Part shown: positions 1-35,427 of the stretch, piece after piece
Position numbering within the stretch: the stretch's first letter is position 1
Layout: each line of letters begins with the position of its first letter
Source: a virus
IMG/VR virus record: IMGVR_UViG_3300042350_000566
Coordinates: 1-35,427 of that record
Reading direction: 5' to 3' (one strand)
DNA length: 35,427 nucleotides
Program-made: the position numbers and the translations under genes
Notes under the pieces: model-generated
The model's database searches: none
What the model was told of the DNA's origin: nothing
What the model saw: the letters and a program-made list of their open reading frames with translations, nothing else

Positions 1-147
1 ATAGAAAAAGTTACGACCCTTGGGAGTTCCGATGAACATTGCCCGACCTTTTTTGTCAGACAGAGAAGCACGAATAACCTGTTCCCATGCTTCTGGTTTG
101 ATGTCGGCAACCTCGTCAAGCACAGCGTAGGTGAGTGACACTCCTCG
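1..147. repeat. Terminal direct repeat, left copy (circular-assembly overlap)
   Basis: These 147 bases recur at the right end of the window with one mismatch (G at 127 versus A at 35407). Both copies lie inside the large terminase reading frame, and joining them restores one continuous gene. The simplest reading is a circular map (circularly permuted genome or circular assembly) of about 35,280 bp rather than a biological terminal repeat. Confidence 0.95.
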
Positions 148-2683: not shown

Positions 2684-2724
2684 TAAGCCCGTAAGGGCTT
2701 ACCTGTGCACTGTCGCACATTTTT
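2684..2724 (+). other. Intergenic stem-loops (GTAA tetraloop hairpin and TGTGC/GCACA hairpin with T-run)
   Basis: TAAGCCC-GTAA-GGGCTTA (2684-2701) is a 7-bp stem with a stable GNRA tetraloop. TGTGC/GCACA (2704-2719) follows and is succeeded by five T, a weak terminator shape. They may tune read-through or RNA stability within the operon. Confidence 0.5.
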
Positions 2725-2738
2725 GAAAGGTGTTAATC

Positions 2739-2996
2739 ATGAACGACATAGTAATTTTCAAACAATCATATGGTGAATTCACTACAGAAAAAGACGGGCG
2801 TTTGTCTGGCACTGTATTGACCATTAAGAGCAAAAGAAAAGACGGGAAATATAGCGTTGTTCATGCCTATGGCAGTGGCAAGCGCATAAACAAAATCTAC
2901 ACTGTAGAGCAATTGCAATGGGTAATATTCCAAATGCAAAAAACTGAGCAATTCCAAAAAGAATGTGCACAGAAATATGAAAATTTAACCGCTTAA
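2739..2996 (+). CDS. Hypothetical early protein, 85 aa
   Basis: The start ATG 2739 follows AGGTGTTAATC, the shared ribosome-binding context of the operon; the in-frame GTG at 2730 falls inside that box and was rejected. The protein is basic and probably soluble. Its N-terminal two-thirds looks like alternating beta-strands (NDIVIFKQSYGEFTTEKDG, TVLTIKSKRKDGKYSVV), and a C-terminal amphipathic helix (about 59-83) is rich in Gln and Lys. It is second in the operon, between an unknown protein and the clamp. No family is recognised. Confidence 0.75.
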   Translation: MNDIVIFKQSYGEFTTEKDGRLSGTVLTIKSKRKDGKYSVVHAYGSGKRINKIYTVEQLQWVIFQMQKTEQFQKECAQKYENLTA

Positions 2997-3053: not shown

Positions 3054-3077
3054 GTTTCTACTTAAAAGGTGTTAATA

Positions 3078-3725
3078 ATGAAATTCTCAATTCTCAAAAA
3101 AGAACTCAAAGCTATTTCACGCTTTGCGGCAACAAAAGACCTTCGCTATTACCTTGTAGGGGTTCACATTGTGCAAAATGCAAGGGGCACATACTTAGAA
3201 GCTACTAATGGGCACATGATGGGCAGATTATTGGTTATGAATGAACCAATGCCAGAAGCTAGCATTATTTTGCCATTGGATGCCGTAAAAACCCTTTGCG
3301 GCACTGCTAAAAATGGCGATGGTGGATGGTTACACTTTGAAACCGAAGGCGTGAAAATCAGCGTTATTGATGGGCTAAACACATACACATTTCAGGCAGT
3401 AGAGGGTACATTTCCCGATTGTGACCGTGTAGTTCCTTTGGTGCTGAAAAAAGAGGATGAATCCCCTAGCGGATACAACCCTGAATATTTGATGGCATTT
3501 CAACAAGCGGCAAACGACATCAAAGGCACTCGAAAAGGTGCAAGCCCTACTATTTCACTGATTCAAAGGGGAAATAGCTCAGGAATTGTGAATATCGGTG
3601 TCGACAATTTTATTGGCATCATTATGCCAATGCGTGACGGAATTGGTGCTAGTGTGCCAGAATGGTGTTATCGTTCTAAAACAAAGCCCGTAGAGGCTGA
3701 AAACTATGAACCAGTGACAGAATAA
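3078..3725 (+). CDS. DnaN-like sliding clamp, shortened (two-domain)
   Basis: This 215-residue protein resembles the bacterial DNA polymerase III beta clamp, the ring that tethers polymerases and repair enzymes to DNA. Residues about 20-52 match the start of clamp domain II (DLRYYLVGVHI... then LEATNGHMMGRLLV, compare DVRYYLNG...VATDGHRLA). PLDAVKTL (66-73) and FQAVEGTFPDCDRVVP (105-120) continue that domain. YNPEYLMAF (133-141) and IIMPMRD (181-187) match the end of domain III, including the MPMR segment that lines the client-peptide pocket. The bacterial clamp is about 366 residues with three domains, so domain I and part of domain III are absent here. The start follows AGGTGTTAATA. It sits in a phage with no polymerase of its own and could redirect host polymerase. 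Ring assembly is untested. Confidence 0.8.
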   Translation: MKFSILKKELKAISRFAATKDLRYYLVGVHIVQNARGTYLEATNGHMMGRLLVMNEPMPEASIILPLDAVKTLCGTAKNGDGGWLHFETEGVKISVIDGLNTYTFQAVEGTFPDCDRVVPLVLKKEDESPSGYNPEYLMAFQQAANDIKGTRKGASPTISLIQRGNSSGIVNIGVDNFIGIIMPMRDGIGASVPEWCYRSKTKPVEAENYEPVTE

Positions 3726-3734
3726 GAGTTCAAA

Positions 3735-3809
3735 CCATTGGGGATATTGTCCCCTTTGGCTTGCATTTTCACAATGTAAGGGCTTACAAGGGCTTTCCTT
3801 GTGTTTTTT
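3735..3809 (+). terminator. Intergenic hairpins ending in a terminator-like stem and T6
   Basis: CCA-TT-GGGGA/TCCCC-TT-TGG (3735-3759) forms one stem. TGTAAG/CTTACA (3775-3788) and ACAAGG/CCTTGT (3786-3802) share bases and so are mutually exclusive; the last is followed by six T (3804-3809), a rho-independent terminator shape. It lies inside the operon, so it would act as an attenuator limiting transcription of the next genes. Confidence 0.5.
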
Positions 3810-3824
3810 GAATAGGTGTCAATC

Positions 3825-4097
3825 ATGATTGCAATTCACACAAAATTTATATCTGCAACCAATACAAGGGGCAGTAGAGTTAAAGCGTATACAGTGGGCA
3901 ACAGTATGCGAAAAGGGTTTCAGGCGACAATTTCATATCCGCATGAATATTCTTATGAGGTTTGCCATTTCCAAGCAGTTAAGGCATTGGTCGAAAAGCA
4001 CAAATTAGACTGGGATTTAAATGATATGCGCTTTGGTGACAGTGCCGATGGCAAAGGCTATACATTCTGTTTCGACAATTCAAAGGTGGGCGCATGA
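3825..4097 (+). CDS. Hypothetical phage protein, 90 aa (conserved type)
   Basis: The start ATG 3825 is preceded by AGGTGTCAATC, the operon's ribosome-binding context. The N-terminus (IHTKFISATNTRGSRVKAYT) is a pattern I recognise from small proteins common in environmental phages, with a basic N-terminal strand region, a central helix (about 51-64, HFQAVKALVEKHKL) and a closing segment DGKGYTFCFDN. No biochemical role is known to me. The stop overlaps the next start as ATGA, so the following gene is probably translationally coupled. Confidence 0.8.
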   Translation: MIAIHTKFISATNTRGSRVKAYTVGNSMRKGFQATISYPHEYSYEVCHFQAVKALVEKHKLDWDLNDMRFGDSADGKGYTFCFDNSKVGA

Positions 4098-5568: not shown

Positions 5569-5611
5569 CTTTCACGCTGTCCAAAAGTTCATTGGCTTCT
5601 TCTTTCGTCAT
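5348..5611 (-). CDS. Hypothetical protein, 87 aa, possibly the 5' part of a frameshifted gene
   Basis: It starts in an ATGA overlap with the preceding gene and has AGGAAG as ribosome site. The N-terminal part (MTKEEANELLDSVKDG... RKITEALWVTGD, about 1-34) looks like the start of a phage family whose members read '...I..AL..TGD'. The remainder after residue about 35 (VHTRPFSEDGINEW, GEGTGTAPIG, NQSGIDQNNER) looks like an out-of-frame reading of the overlapping gene. I therefore trust the first third more than the rest. Confidence 0.5.
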   Translation of the reverse strand: MTKEEANELLDSVKDGNAYLSVRKITEALWVTGDAVRPVPVHTRPFSEDGINEWMESTRMVSGEGTGTAPIGYISGNQSGIDQNNER

Positions 5612-6039
5612 TGTCTTCCTCTCAATGCCGCCAGTTTTTCCCTGATATGGTCAGGCATAGGAATAGCGTTTTGGCGGTCTTTTTCTAGTTTGGCTATGGC
5701 AGGGTCAATTTGTGGTTTTATCTGCGTTTCAGGCACTTCTGCGCCATCCCATCGTTGTTGATTGAGATAGACCAAAGGTGCTGGAATAAAAGCCCCGTTT
5801 GCTTTTAACCATTGCTCTGTGGTCTTCATCCATGCAAGGTGTTTGAGAATTTGGTCTGCTTGTGTGTCGCAATAAGACTTTATCCACACCTGTTTACATT
5901 TAGCCTTTGCCCCTTTTCTTGGAGTGTTAGGCCACATTTTCCAGAAGTCATCAAACATCGGTTTACTTTCAGACATAGTTTCTCCAAGGGTGGATAGAGT
6001 CATTTCTATCCTACCTTCTCCAGACAATCTAGTGTTCAT
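5608..6039 (-). CDS. DnaT/replisome-organiser-like protein
   Basis: First gene of the leftward operon. The core FDDFWKMWPNTPRKGAKAKC (about 29-48) followed by a helical stretch and GAFIPAPLVYLNQQRWDG (about 82-99) matches the C-terminal domain found in phage replication organisers and primosomal proteins, where the F..FW..YP.+..K and IP....LNQ.RW motifs recur. Such proteins help load the replicative helicase at a phage origin. The N-terminal DNA-binding domain of larger relatives is missing, so it may be a partner rather than an initiator. Three in-frame ATGs (6039, 6003, 5976) each have a ribosome site; the first has AGGAG at 7 nt and was kept, while 5976 begins just before the conserved core. 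Confidence 0.65.
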   Translation of the reverse strand: MNTRLSGEGRIEMTLSTLGETMSESKPMFDDFWKMWPNTPRKGAKAKCKQVWIKSYCDTQADQILKHLAWMKTTEQWLKANGAFIPAPLVYLNQQRWDGAEVPETQIKPQIDPAIAKLEKDRQNAIPMPDHIREKLAALRGRQ

Positions 6040-13845: not shown

Positions 13846-15807
13846 TTATCGTAATCTTTGTTCTAGCATTTCCAACTCTTTAAGCTCATCAGGTGTCATG
13901 GCTTGATTAGGTTGATTTGGTTGATTGGGTTGTTCAGGTTTAGCAATACCCAAATCTTCCTCTGTTATACCCGCTGTTTTATAAGCCTCATTCATAAAGC
14001 CAACTGTTTTTAAAGCCAATTTTGTTTTTTCTTCTCCTGTAGCTTTAAGTGCTTGAGAATATGTTTGCTCTGCTTTTAGTAAGTCTCTAACACCATTTTT
14101 ACTGGTTGCAAATTTTGCCAAAGCTAAAGGCGTTAAAAGTATTCCACCAGCAGATAAAACTGTTCCTGCCAATCCAATTCCACCAGCAACAGATGCACCT
14201 GCTGTTATGCCCAATAACACTTTTTGTGCCGAATCAGCTTGGGCAGACGCAAGAGCAAGAGAAAAAGTATTTTGTGGTTTTGCTTGGCTTAATCTTGCGG
14301 CATTCACAAGTGTTTTAATGTTATTTCGTATTTCCTCATCAGGTATTGCGGCATCAAATGTTCTTTTGAATTTTTTGTCTTGTAATTTTTTATCAAGAGA
14401 CAACAAAGAAGCAACAGCAGTTTCTTGACCTTCAGTTCCTATCAATCCAGAAAGATAATTTTTTTGTAAAGACGCTTTAATTTCACCCACATTTAATTTT
14501 GGATTGATTGTTTGCGCTCGTTCCAAAGATTTGTACATTTGCTCTATCTCTGTAACATTACCAGTAGCAAATATGGTGTCGCCTACTCGCTCAACAGTTT
14601 TATTGTTAAGTTTGGCTAAAGATTCTGGAAACAACTCAGTTGTACTTTCTCTATAAAAATTAGATGTTTCTCTATAAGCCTCTTTTAATCTAGGATTTAG
14701 TTTTGATGCTGATAAATCCATAGCCTGTTCAATTGCGTTAATATTTTGAGACAAAACAGCTACCAATGGGCTATTTGCTCCAAATTCATTCTTAACATCT
14801 CTTAACTGAGCATTTAAATCAGAACGCAATTTATGTGCTTGAGTAAAAGTTATGTTGCCTTTTAGGTCAGAAATATTTTTAAGTTGAGTTACAACTTGGT
14901 CGCTCAATGCAATGTTAGGAGTCCCTGATCTAGAAATATCAGCCGCTTCTTTTAATCTTGCTAAAGCATTATTTGCTATTGGACTTACATCCACAGAAAC
15001 ATTTTTTCCTGCTTGCTCAATTACCCCATAAGCCTCATTAGCCGCTAAACTTAGTTCTGATTGAGCATCCTTTATTGCCTCTTTATAACTTTTACCAGCC
15101 TCTACATCATCAACAATTTTGGGTGTAAATTGATTTAAAATTTTATCTCTTTTGTTTTGCAATGCTGTTGTATTGGCTTCTTCAAGTTTTGCAAATGTGC
15201 CTTTACCAGCTATTGAGCCTCTACCAATTGACTCAATAACTCCAGATGTAGATGATGGCTTAACTTGAAAACGAGTTAATCCACCAAAACCTTCTTCTTC
15301 CAATAAAGTTTGTACTTGTCTTTTTATTTCTATGTCTGGTGGAGCTTTTGTTGCAAATAAACCCAATGAAGGTAATTTTGCTTTTGCAATTTTAAATAAA
15401 CTTCCACCTAATTTAAAGACAACATTCCCTGCCGCATCTATAGTTACTTCATTGATAGTGTTTGATAACTGTTCAGCAAACTGTTTAGTCAATGGCTGAC
15501 TCTTGCCTTGAAATGCTTCAATTTGTTGTTTTGTTACTGTGCCTGTAAGCGCACCAGCACCTGTACCTACAAGACCTCTAATTACCCCTGCTGTACCTAC
15601 TCTTGCCTCTGCCCCAAGCACTGGATTTCTTGTGCCAAATGTTGTAAGCGCACCGCCAACTAAACCACCTATCTCTGGCAAAGCCTGCACTGTTGCTCGA
15701 CCTAATTGTTGACCAAATGATGGTTGAGGTCTTGGTGGTTCAAACACAGACCCATATTGTTGTTCAAGAGCCTCTAACTCTTGTTGTTCAGCAGGTTTTA
15801 ATGCCAT
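13846..15807 (-). CDS. Large helical protein, putative ejection/internal virion protein, 653 aa
   Basis: The chain starts with a short Pro/Gln-rich segment, then a Gly/Ala-rich hydrophobic region (residues about 44-95, for example GGLVGGALTTFGTRNP and GVIRGLVGTGAGALTG) that could insert in membranes. Long amphipathic helices follow, with a second hydrophobic stretch near residues 530-570 (VLLGITAGASVAGGIGLAGT) and a Gln/Pro/Asn repeat (QPNQPNQPNQ) near the C-terminus. Position after the adaptor, nozzle and fibre genes matches internal proteins that are ejected with DNA in podoviruses. There is no sequence signature, so the role is inferred from order and composition. Codon use is more AT-rich than in flanking genes. 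Confidence 0.6.
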   Translation of the reverse strand: MALKPAEQQELEALEQQYGSVFEPPRPQPSFGQQLGRATVQALPEIGGLVGGALTTFGTRNPVLGAEARVGTAGVIRGLVGTGAGALTGTVTKQQIEAFQGKSQPLTKQFAEQLSNTINEVTIDAAGNVVFKLGGSLFKIAKAKLPSLGLFATKAPPDIEIKRQVQTLLEEEGFGGLTRFQVKPSSTSGVIESIGRGSIAGKGTFAKLEEANTTALQNKRDKILNQFTPKIVDDVEAGKSYKEAIKDAQSELSLAANEAYGVIEQAGKNVSVDVSPIANNALARLKEAADISRSGTPNIALSDQVVTQLKNISDLKGNITFTQAHKLRSDLNAQLRDVKNEFGANSPLVAVLSQNINAIEQAMDLSASKLNPRLKEAYRETSNFYRESTTELFPESLAKLNNKTVERVGDTIFATGNVTEIEQMYKSLERAQTINPKLNVGEIKASLQKNYLSGLIGTEGQETAVASLLSLDKKLQDKKFKRTFDAAIPDEEIRNNIKTLVNAARLSQAKPQNTFSLALASAQADSAQKVLLGITAGASVAGGIGLAGTVLSAGGILLTPLALAKFATSKNGVRDLLKAEQTYSQALKATGEEKTKLALKTVGFMNEAYKTAGITEEDLGIAKPEQPNQPNQPNQAMTPDELKELEMLEQRLR

Positions 15808-15835
15808 GATTAAGTCCTTTTATATCGACAAATTA

Positions 15836-17413
15836 TTATTTAGATTGGTTTTGTTTTTCTCTAAGCTCAAGAAGGCGTTTTTTATCTTTCCTAATTTGTT
15901 CAGTTACTCTTTTTCTTTCTGAAGCAAAATTGTATTTGTTCAAATCGCCGCCTTGGTCAAGATAGGTTGCAAGTGCATCATTCACGCCATTATCAATTAA
16001 GGCATTTTCTTCAATCCTATCTGCAACATATTGCAAAGTTCGTAATGACAAACCTCTTGAACCAATAGTATCTTTTAGGAACTTTACATCCTTGTCAGAC
16101 AAAGAACCTTTAAGATTTGATGCCGCACCAATTGTTAATTCACCCAAAATAGTGTCAATAATTTGTGATGCTGGAACACCTTGTATGTTTATACCAAATA
16201 CTTCTGCTAATCTACTTGCATCCAATGCAACATCACTACCAAATCCTGTAAATGCTTGTGGCAAAAGAGTTTTAAGATTTCGTGCAAGAGTTAGTCGATC
16301 AGATGCACCATAAGCATCTGTTTCAACAGTTGCGGCAAGTTTAGCTTTGTTATCTAAAATTGCTTTATCTTGTCTTTGTTGTGGAGAAGTTCCTGCTTTT
16401 GCTTTTTCTCTTTCTGATTTTTCAACAGCCGCATCTACTTTTCCTGATTCTTCAGGAGTTAAGTCAGCATAAGGCTTTCCATACATTGTTTTAGATTTTC
16501 TTTCGGCTTCTGTTCCAAAGGCAATGCTTCTTTCTTTTTCTGATTTTTCAAGATATTTAACAATTTCAGCGTTATATTCAGCAGTTCCTTTAGTAAATCC
16601 TTTACTAGTGGCAACTGTTTGAGCTTCTTGAATTTTTGCTGGAATTTTGTCTGGATTTTCAATTTCTCTTAGATCAGCAACATTTTTGCTAACCTTATAA
16701 GTTGCCATGCTTGCAGGGGTGTATTTACCTGAACGAAGCAATTGTTCAAATGGGTCAGCACCTTGTTTTTCACGAAGTCGTTGAGTAGTCAAAGCCATTT
16801 CAGACATTGATTTACGAGCACTTTCAGCAATCTTCATTGCCAAATCAGGAGCACTTCTGGCATATTTCTGAGCAACTCTCAATTGTTGTTCAGGGTCACT
16901 TGGGTCAAGTTCACTCAAGATTTGTTGTTGCAAACCAATCATCTGCAGTTGAGGGTCTTTACCACCCAAAGCACCACCAATAGCATCACCTAACTGTTGA
17001 CCACCACGATAGAAGCCAAACTGAGCTTGTTGCATGGGTGTTAACTGTGCATAAGCCAGTGCTTCATTTTGCATAGCCGCTTGCCGTCTTTGCAAGTATT
17101 CCATCTCTGCCGCACGGGAAATTTCAGGACTAAACATTCCACCCACAACAGATGGAGGTGCTTGTCTTACTGACAGTGCTGAGTATGGTTCAGCATCTGG
17201 TATTGGAACTTCACTTTGCACCCTCTCTGCTGGAGTAAAGTCAGTAAGGAGAGATTGGCGGAATGGTGGAGCCATAATTCGATCAAACTCTGATCTTGCC
17301 ATGTCAGCCCTACGCTGTTCTTCTTCTCTAATTCTTTGAGATTCAAAATCCATATCCATATTTTGATTTGCAAAAAGTCTATTCATTGGAATTGTGTAGG
17401 TACGGGTTGGCAT
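15836..17413 (-). CDS. Large helical protein, putative ejection/internal virion protein, 525 aa
   Basis: A charged, mostly helical protein (DFESQRIREEEQRRADMARS near the N-terminus; a Gln-rich segment about 150-190; a Lys/Arg-rich C-terminal helix). A Gly-rich patch GGQQLGDAIGGALGGKD lies near residue 136-152. It is second of three consecutive large genes between the fibre/cupin genes and the lysis cassette, the place where P22- and T7-like phages encode DNA-injection proteins. No transglycosylase motif was seen. Start ATG 17413 follows its upstream neighbour by 10 nt. Confidence 0.58.
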   Translation of the reverse strand: MPTRTYTIPMNRLFANQNMDMDFESQRIREEEQRRADMARSEFDRIMAPPFRQSLLTDFTPAERVQSEVPIPDAEPYSALSVRQAPPSVVGGMFSPEISRAAEMEYLQRRQAAMQNEALAYAQLTPMQQAQFGFYRGGQQLGDAIGGALGGKDPQLQMIGLQQQILSELDPSDPEQQLRVAQKYARSAPDLAMKIAESARKSMSEMALTTQRLREKQGADPFEQLLRSGKYTPASMATYKVSKNVADLREIENPDKIPAKIQEAQTVATSKGFTKGTAEYNAEIVKYLEKSEKERSIAFGTEAERKSKTMYGKPYADLTPEESGKVDAAVEKSEREKAKAGTSPQQRQDKAILDNKAKLAATVETDAYGASDRLTLARNLKTLLPQAFTGFGSDVALDASRLAEVFGINIQGVPASQIIDTILGELTIGAASNLKGSLSDKDVKFLKDTIGSRGLSLRTLQYVADRIEENALIDNGVNDALATYLDQGGDLNKYNFASERKRVTEQIRKDKKRLLELREKQNQSK

Positions 17414-17423
17414 GATTTATTCC

Positions 17424-18470
17424 TTAATAGTAACCAGAGGATAAATTGTTTACAGGAATGGATGCTTGGTAGGCATCAGAAAACGCTTGTTGTTGCGGAG
17501 GATTAAAGTATTGATTTAATCCTTGTTGTACATAAGGATTGTTTCCAAATCCTGTCAATGCCGCACCCAATCCACTTTGCCCAGAAGCCGCTTGCAGAGT
17601 CCTAGCCGCACCCAATCCACCAGTTAATAGTGCTTGACCAACATTGCCACCAGCGGTAGCAGAACGACCACCAAGTTCAGAACCTAAAGCTAAAGGTTGT
17701 TGACCAAGAGATTCAATGGTAGAACCAGCACCCAAGTAACTTGTAAACGGACTCAAAGCACCGACTTGACCAGCTTGATACTGACCCATTAAGCCAGCAC
17801 CAGAACCTAACAATCCTGCACCAAAAGCCACATTCTGTTGACCAGCTTGTTGAGCCTGAGAAGCCAATTGCAAGTCTTGTTGTGCCAATGCGTTGTAATA
17901 CGCTTCCATCTCAGGACTAGTAGCACCCAAACCACCAGCACCACTAGGGCGCAACCCTGTAGCACCTACCGACAAGCCACCACGACCTGTTTGAAACAAC
18001 TGGTTTTGCAACTGAGCATATTGACGCTCACGGCTAGGCGCAAGTAAATCTTGTTGTTGTTGAATGTACTGAGCCGCTACTTGCTGTGGAGACTGCTGTA
18101 GGTATTGCTGACCCAATCCAAACAATCCTTGAGCACCTTGCTGAAGCGGAGCATACTGCTCCTGTGCCATCTCAGCCTGAGTTAATGCACCGCCTGTAAG
18201 AGCCTGTAATCGGTCTTGATAGGCTCTTAATTCAGGAGAAACTGTATAACCAGCACCAGAGACATAACCATCAGGGCCAAACTGGAAGTTTGAAGTGCCG
18301 TAACGAGTAGTTACACCAACAGGGCGAAACTTAGCCGCTTCAGCCGCAATTCGTGCAGACTCAAGTTGAGCTTGTGCAGATTGTCGTGCCGCATCTCCAG
18401 CGGCTTTACTTTGCATCGAACCGCCAAGCAGTGATGCACCCCCCATAATTGCGGCGGCGGCTATAGGCAT
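17424..18470 (-). CDS. Gln/Ala/Gly-rich putative DNA-transfer (ejection) protein, 348 aa
   Basis: The N-terminus (MPIAAAAIMGGASLLGGSMQS) is a hydrophobic Ala/Gly helix followed by a long Ala-rich amphipathic helix (SAQAQLESARIAAEAAKF). This pairing is common at the start of phage DNA-transfer proteins of the P22 gp7 kind. The rest is low-complexity, rich in Gln, Ala, Gly and Leu (QQYLQQSPQQVAAQYIQQQQ), ending in a Tyr/Asn-rich tail. It is the first of the three large internal-protein genes and lies 2 nt from the cupin stop. Composition and position support ejection; sequence alone does not prove it. Confidence 0.65.
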   Translation of the reverse strand: MPIAAAAIMGGASLLGGSMQSKAAGDAARQSAQAQLESARIAAEAAKFRPVGVTTRYGTSNFQFGPDGYVSGAGYTVSPELRAYQDRLQALTGGALTQAEMAQEQYAPLQQGAQGLFGLGQQYLQQSPQQVAAQYIQQQQDLLAPSRERQYAQLQNQLFQTGRGGLSVGATGLRPSGAGGLGATSPEMEAYYNALAQQDLQLASQAQQAGQQNVAFGAGLLGSGAGLMGQYQAGQVGALSPFTSYLGAGSTIESLGQQPLALGSELGGRSATAGGNVGQALLTGGLGAARTLQAASGQSGLGAALTGFGNNPYVQQGLNQYFNPPQQQAFSDAYQASIPVNNLSSGYY

Positions 18471-34494: not shown

Positions 34495-35427
34495 TTATAT
34501 CCCCGAAATTACATCTAGTGGTTGCCACTCATCTTCATCATCTTGTTCAAAGTATGTGGTGACAGCAAGTTGGTCGATGTATGACAAAGAGTCGGGTAAG
34601 TCATCATGTACACCATTGGCAGGGAACATTAAGAGTTGGTCTTTGAATTCATCCCAATCTTCCTCAGAGTTCAGCACAATGCGCCCATGCTCAAACCGCC
34701 CTTGGAGACTCCAGATAATCCTGTCTGTCTTTTTCCTGTTGCCATGCGTTAAGTCAACTATGTGTGAATATACATTATTTTTCCGCATTAAGTCACTCAA
34801 ATACGGCAAAACTGCATTTTTTAACGCTCCCCTCTCAATTCCAACTGCCAAAGGGCGGTATTCCCTCATTTTCAGCAGAATCGTAGCGGCTGTTTCCCTA
34901 ATGTCCCATCGACCATAAGCAATCTCTTTGACAAACCACTTCCCATCGTCTGTAACCTTAACCACAGAGATAGCAGTCTGATCTAGTCTTTTCTTGGAAT
35001 TGGCGGCTTGTTTGGCAACTTCTTCAAATCCAGCCAAGTCCACAGCAATGTAGTAGCTTCCATAGTCAGGTTCTTCTCCATACTTAATCCATTCTTCCTT
35101 GAAGACATCTGAGCCAGCATTGTCAAAGGAAGCCATGTACTCTTGTTTGAAAGCAAAGGTAGAGAGAGTTTTCTTGGCAGATTCAATCTCTGTTGGGTCT
35201 ATCAAGGGGTTGTCTTTGGTGGTGAAATGCCAACTTTTCCAATCTGAATCGGTTTCTGAGTTTCCGAGTTTAAAAATGTCATAGAAAAAGTTACGACCCT
35301 TGGGAGTTCCGATGAACATTGCCCGACCTTTTTTGTCAGACAGAGAAGCACGAATAACCTGTTCCCATGCTTCTGGTTTGATGTCGGCAACCTCGTCAAG
35401 CACAGCATAGGTGAGTGACACTCCTCG
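34495..35427 (-). CDS. terL: Terminase large subunit, C-terminal part (continues at left end of window)
   Basis: This is the nuclease half of the gene whose start lies at 474. The segment runs off the right end and overlaps the left part by 49 codons. It repeats Walker B (TYAVLDE) and the coupling motif, then carries the RNase H-like nuclease: YYIAVDLAGFEE with the first Asp, LAVGIERGALKNAV with the second acidic residue, and NGVHDDLPDSLSYID with the third. The nuclease cuts DNA at the start and end of packaging. The stop is immediately followed by the portal ATG. Confidence 0.95.
   Translation of the reverse strand, partial: RGVSLTYAVLDEVADIKPEAWEQVIRASLSDKKGRAMFIGTPKGRNFFYDIFKLGNSETDSDWKSWHFTTKDNPLIDPTEIESAKKTLSTFAFKQEYMASFDNAGSDVFKEEWIKYGEEPDYGSYYIAVDLAGFEEVAKQAANSKKRLDQTAISVVKVTDDGKWFVKEIAYGRWDIRETAATILLKMREYRPLAVGIERGALKNAVLPYLSDLMRKNNVYSHIVDLTHGNRKKTDRIIWSLQGRFEHGRIVLNSEEDWDEFKDQLLMFPANGVHDDLPDSLSYIDQLAVTTYFEQDDEDEWQPLDVISGI
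35281..35427. repeat. Terminal direct repeat, right copy
   Basis: Same 147 bases as 1-147 except A at 35407 in place of G at 127. In the terminase frame the change is TAT versus TAC (both Tyr), so it is silent. Removing one copy gives a 35,280-bp circle. Confidence 0.95.

Follow-up and report, generated by a model that had tools for sequence, protein, structure and literature searches.

The open reading frame at positions 3078–3725 (+) of the window, by which we mean the whole 35,427-nucleotide stretch of viral DNA analysed here (IMG/VR record IMGVR_UViG_3300042350_000566), encodes a protein of 215 residues plus a stop codon that is homologous, well above chance, to the bacterial sliding clamp DnaN. 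The protein is composed of DnaN domain II, the second half of domain III and a C-terminal tail, amounting to 1.5 domains per chain, and its gene, hereafter the half-clamp gene, belongs to the phrog_3007 family. We tentatively propose, at somewhat below an even chance, that the DnaN-derived half-clamp is a non-ring, pocket-bearing arc that binds host proteins carrying the clamp-binding motif, probably while touching DNA.

Homology to DnaN and domain architecture

The relationship to DnaN is detected at several levels. The clamp model TIGR00663 matches the window protein with an E-value of 6e-7, at a score of 28.6 bits that lies well below the cut-off of 137.65 bits for a full clamp, and the Pfam domain II family PF02767 matches it with an E-value of 2.4e-4, under the curated cut-off of that family. 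PF02767 is also matched by all of the relatives in our alignment (34/34), and domain II homology is thereby found both in the window protein and in its family. In searches against clamps in the PDB, the window protein gives an E-value of 1e-6 with phmmer, and the family profile built from the 34-sequence alignment gives an E-value of 5e-18. A second stretch of the family profile places residues 132–183 on residues 319–366 of the Pseudomonas aeruginosa beta clamp, and the MPMR segment is aligned with E. coli M362–R365.

The predicted fold is that of a clamp. The AlphaFold2 model of the window protein, computed from the 34-sequence alignment, has a pLDDT of 87.8 and a pTM of 0.82, and a Foldseek search with this model returns bacterial clamps at the top (E-value 9e-12). 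The DnaN-like identity that an earlier note had read from the letters of the sequence is thus borne out by the TIGR00663 match, the family profile and Foldseek, and two of the checks suggested there, a profile search against DnaN and a structure prediction of the monomer, returned DnaN families and a clamp fold, respectively. VIA-align superimposes the model on residues 126–366 of E. coli beta with a Z-score of 18.0 and a deviation of 2.4 Å over 175 residues. Because the matched stretch of beta comprises 241 residues, of which 175 are aligned, about 66 residues must be missing, and the sequence alignment places the gap at E. coli residues 251–317 (approximately), the first half of domain III. 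A separate model of a member from a Bordetella prophage is weaker (pLDDT 77.0) and has the same fold (Z-score 17.3, 2.5 Å, 178 residues against E. coli beta).

The truncation is shared by the family. Among 24 divergent members, only 7–11 residues per member are aligned within DnaN 251–317, and domain I and the first half of domain III are absent in all 24. Consistent with this, the domain I family PF00712 finds no match in the genome, and the window protein does not have the three clamp domains per chain of the DnaN ring. Compared with bacterial DnaN (PF00712/PF02767/PF02768, TIGR00663), the window protein is therefore alike in domain II and the second half of domain III, in both sequence and predicted fold, and unlike in what it has lost and in its C-terminal extension. 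The loss of domain I and of part of domain III with retention of the MPMR pocket segment, as described in the earlier note, is confirmed by the alignment; its count of two domains per chain has to be lowered to 1.5, the remnant of domain III being exactly its second half (P. aeruginosa beta 319–366).

Specifically, residues 1–121 (3078–3440, +) correspond to DnaN domain II (E. coli 126–250), residues 122–131 (3441–3470, +) form a short linker that takes the place of the first half of domain III (E. coli about 251–317), and residues 132–187 (3471–3638, +) correspond to its second half (E. coli about 318–366). Some HMMER and hhalign alignments continue straight from domain II into helix 135–149, which would make it the first helix of domain III. 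We rejected this assignment and place the helix in the second half of the domain, since divergent members carry the pattern IGFN-x-x-Y (DnaN N320 and Y323) and the final strand has MPMR at its end.

Residues 188–215 (3639–3722, +) form a tail of 28 residues that extends past the C-terminus of DnaN. In the subgroup of the window protein the tail is conserved, and it is longer than elsewhere in phrog_3007: P194 and W196 are conserved in close relatives, and many distant members have no tail. The last residues of the AlphaFold2 model are of low confidence. Directly after the pocket strand, the tail of close relatives contains a conserved A-x-V-P-x-W-C-Y-x-P motif, which could possibly be a lid of the pocket or a separate binding motif.

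Two features speak for the ATG as the start: a ribosome-binding box, AAAAGGTG, lies just 5′ of it at 3064–3071 (+), and the proteins of nearly all close relatives begin with MKF or MQF. The box lies within a start-site repeat, TTxAAAGGTGTTAAT.ATG, that is common to neighbouring genes, with copies at window positions 2723–2743, 3062–3082 and 3809–3829 and a similar sequence, AGGTGTCAACATG, at about 2435–2447. A near-identical start box, AAAGGTGTTAAT.ATG, is common to several small early genes, which suggests duplicated or jointly regulated translation starts. The half-clamp gene contains a small antisense open reading frame that is open in 38 loci; we read it as a side effect of the frame that it overlaps.

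Ring interface, partner pocket and helical face

In the DnaN ring, one side of the subunit interface is formed by K74, I78, R96, R103, R105 and F106 of domain I, and the other side is formed by I272, L273 and E298–E304 of domain III (PMC11139829). Every one of these residues falls in the parts that are deleted from the window protein, which hence has no known subunit interface.

The pocket that receives clamp partners is kept nearly whole. In DnaN it is composed of R152, L155, T172, G174, H175, R176, L177, P242, R246, V247, V360 and M362, together with N320, Y323, V344 and P363–R365 (PMC11139829), and the window protein has the identical residue at 14 of these 18 positions, including the equivalents of R152, L155, T172, G174, H175, P242, R246, V247, N320, Y323 and M362–R365. 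In particular, residues 23–26, RYYL (3144–3155, +), represent subsite I with E. coli R152 and L155 (pocket list from PMC11139829), while residues 134–137, NPEY (3477–3488, +), represent subsite II with N320 and Y323. The remaining pocket segments are residues 43–48, TNGHMM (3204–3221, +; E. coli T172, G174, H175, R176 and L177), residues 112–118, FPDCDRV (3411–3431, +; P242, R246 and V247), and residues 181–186, IIMPMR (3618–3635, +; V360 and M362–R365).

Across the 24 divergent phage and prophage members, the 18 pocket residues are on average 73% identical to Salmonella DnaN, compared with 20% at the other positions of the shared region; the members are related to each other, which makes these figures, like those for charge below, optimistic. 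A full-length phage clamp used as a control shows the same pattern (94% in the pocket versus 33% elsewhere), indicating that the half-clamp family conserves the pocket as a working clamp does. Full-length phage DnaN proteins (phrog_947, for example that of Rhizobium phage RR1-A) are homologous to the window protein in domains II and III and have an equally conserved pocket, but with 370 residues and all three domains they can form a normal dimer ring.

The half-clamp family is conserved and functional by selection, with dN/dS values of 0.06–0.15 between close relatives, indicative of purifying selection. These values contradict the notion of a functionless, decaying remnant of a host dnaN gene, which we find barely credible. 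Its shortness relative to DnaN and an in-frame TAG in one relative (L006) would fit such decay, but 287 relatives are present among pattern-selected IMG/VR stretches and the same architecture recurs across distant phages. The retained pocket points to the partners of the clamp and away from the clamp itself. Loss of the ring contacts, with the pocket under strong selection in many unrelated phages, suggests that phages benefit from the pocket by itself.

The inner, helical face of clamps is basic and the outer face is mainly acidic (PMC11139829). In the half-clamp family, the columns of the three helices on the DNA-facing side carry an excess of positive charge in every one of the 24 members. 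The summed charge of this face is +91, compared with +11 (sd 13) after shuffling, an excess that is less significant than it appears because the members are related. As judged from sequence, this polarity suggests that the helical face of the half-clamp may still meet DNA.

Host replication and candidate functions

A direct terminal repeat of 143 bases (142/143 identical; window 5–147 and 35285–35427) indicates that the genome is probably complete, and a terminase gene spans the window ends. Profiles of family A, B and C polymerases (PF00476, PF00136 and PF07733) find no match in the genome, in agreement with the earlier note, which had described the phage as having no polymerase of its own; PolA is absent from 12 of 13 related contigs as well. 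The phage apparently relies on the Pol III of its host. Its genome also encodes a Sak-like annealing protein, a YqaJ/RecE-like exonuclease, a RuvC-like resolvase and an initiator-like gene, and none of the genes scanned resembled a clamp loader. Among 16 named phages, PolA is present in five and PolB in none, and since relatives occur with and without PolA, the occurrence of the half-clamp is not linked to whether a phage has a polymerase. The phage's own proteins contain two clamp-binding motifs versus 3.7 expected by shuffling, and with no excess of motifs a phage-encoded client of the half-clamp is not evident.

Several observations concern other genes of the window. A terminase fragment at 34495–35421 (−) contains QLLMF, which fits the clamp-binding motif, in a genome whose motif counts are not above chance. 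The match of the initiator-like protein (5608–6039, −) to phage replication initiation families is confined to their C-terminal part, and several related contigs have a longer initiator-like gene (about 254 residues) at a similar place. Three large genes at 13846–18470 (−), encoding 653, 525 and 348 residues and adjoining the tail genes, have no match in Pfam or PHROGs.

In the mechanism that we propose, the half-clamp would be a sliding-clamp arc centred on the partner pocket, with neither half of the ring-closing interface. The pocket would capture host proteins with clamp-binding motifs, candidates being Pol III alpha, clamp-loader delta, repair polymerases, MutL and Hda, while the basic helical face would stay near DNA, and the captured proteins would be tethered or redirected to phage replication or recombination intermediates. 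We infer the binding of host motifs by the pocket, the contact of the basic face with DNA and the non-ring state, the last from the missing known interfaces; a new interface could exist. The position of half-clamp genes beside PolA and helicase genes (BcepC6B, Xanthomonas PhiXhv-1 and Acinetobacter 4316) counts for such an adaptor, and the lack of the tail in many distant members counts against it. A monomeric mutant of beta, which binds DNA and gives no processive tethering of Pol III (PMC11139829), also counts against it. The nearest functional analogy is herpesvirus UL42, a monomeric processivity factor of clamp fold that presents a basic helical face to DNA with no ring (PMC9690074). The likeness is one of working only: the lineage is unrelated, and UL42 has its own polymerase partner.

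The main rival, which we consider rather unlikely, is that the half-clamp is a soluble, DNA-independent decoy, whose free pocket titrates away host partners of the clamp (clamp-loader delta, Pol III, mismatch repair and RecBCD). Such a protein would inhibit or reprogram host replication and repair early in infection. Retention of the pocket with loss of the ring interfaces agrees with a decoy, and so does the binding of delta to monomeric beta, which is about 50 times tighter than to the dimer (PMC11139829), and the use of the canonical pocket by RecB as well (PMC13254535). In Bcep781, Shewanella phage 1/41 and TheodorHerzl, moreover, the gene stands alone, antisense, amid structural genes and resembles an independently expressed gene. 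However, a broad block of Pol III would harm a phage with no visible polymerase, the basic helix face has been kept and would be superfluous for a DNA-free decoy, and some members lie within replication operons with PolA and helicase.

To our knowledge, cellular clamps are all closed rings of 12 half-domains, and four chains of the window protein would reach this number (12/3 = 4). An unconventional oligomeric clamp, in which new interfaces make a ring or a C-shape and the half-clamp is a true phage processivity factor, would also account for the clamp-like charge polarity and for the adjacency of PolA and helicase in several phages. We nevertheless judge it improbable: both canonical interfaces are absent, no clamp loader is found among the scanned genes, and with an odd number of half-domains per chain, the alternating contacts within and between domains would not be simply repeatable head to tail. 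We know of no clamp with interfaces of the tetramer type. PCNA and the T4 gp45 trimer belong to the same clamp fold family, but each of their chains has two complete domains and interfaces that match, in contrast to the 1.5 domains of the window protein. The ring of three subunits that the earlier note had envisaged, as in PCNA, fails on this count; a trimer holds 9 of the 12 half-domains, both interface sides are deleted, and we rejected it.

It is possible, if doubtful, that the pocket module of three half-domains is a DNA-bound monomer that serves host Pol III as an adaptor, or else that four chains (12 half-domains) assemble into a tetrameric clamp of a new symmetry. If true, each of the two would be a kind of clamp that is not known in cells.

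The earlier note had also raised binding to the host clamp itself. The half-clamp might poison or remodel the ring in this way, for instance with its tail or by taking the place of part of a subunit. The subunits of clamps contact each other by sheet edges, a type of contact through which host beta could pair with a fragment, and phage proteins that bind the clamp exist, such as Twort Gp168 (PMC11139829). We regard this as very improbable, however, for the subunit-contact residues are the deleted ones, and no canonical clamp-binding motif occurs in the tail, which many members lack.

The partner network of the bacterial clamp is a drug target, and in the half-clamp nature would offer a probe, or an inhibitor, of this network. 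The gene is present in the E. coli phages TheodorHerzl (Bas14) and Skarpretter, which makes the pocket-only idea directly testable in E. coli.

Family distribution and naming

The window protein matches phrog_3007 with an E-value of 6.6e-29 over positions 1–186 of 190, essentially the full length of the profile. Members with the same truncated architecture include Bcep781 gp15, TheodorHerzl bas14_0007, the Skarpretter protein and others, and three bacterial genomes (Bordetella and Pandoraea) also carry the gene. Among close relatives, no constant partner gene directly adjoins the half-clamp gene; small-terminase-like, RuvC-like and initiator-like genes are common in its vicinity.

The half-clamp is a sequence family that is already catalogued, but mislabelled. 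phrog_3007 carries the label 'RusA-like Holliday junction resolvase' and is also annotated 'DNA polymerase III beta subunit', the latter being the deposited name of several relatives, and the GenBank note of Bcep781 gp15 reads 'DNA Pol III b subunit fragment'. Apart from the PHROGs label and the GenBank names copied from it, the findings speak against a RusA-like resolvase. No RusA family in Pfam or NCBIfam matches up to an E-value of 1, the only sensible matches are DnaN families, and the predicted fold is a clamp; furthermore, Bcep781 has a separate annotated RusA gene (gp22) and the window has its separate RuvC-like gene. The likelihood of this identity is virtually nil, and we ruled it out. 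The open literature that we searched yielded no study of the truncated phage clamp family. The family is widespread, GenBank and PHROGs have long contained it, and phages that encode a PolA of their own are among its carriers, all of which weakens the claim of the earlier note that the gene represents a new way of taking over host replication.

Three observations on deposited records were made in passing. The name 'RusA-like' is spreading over clamp fragments by automatic annotation, for example in PV764598, PQ569993 and PP763254. In L006 (positions 260–508; same contig as L031), an in-frame TAG stands where relatives have Trp, which may be a sequencing error, a nonsense mutation or recoding. 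The record of Campylobacter phage A11a (L098; MG065691, marked 'UNVERIFIED') contains a DnaN about 96% identical to that of Salmonella and appears to be contaminated with enterobacterial DNA.
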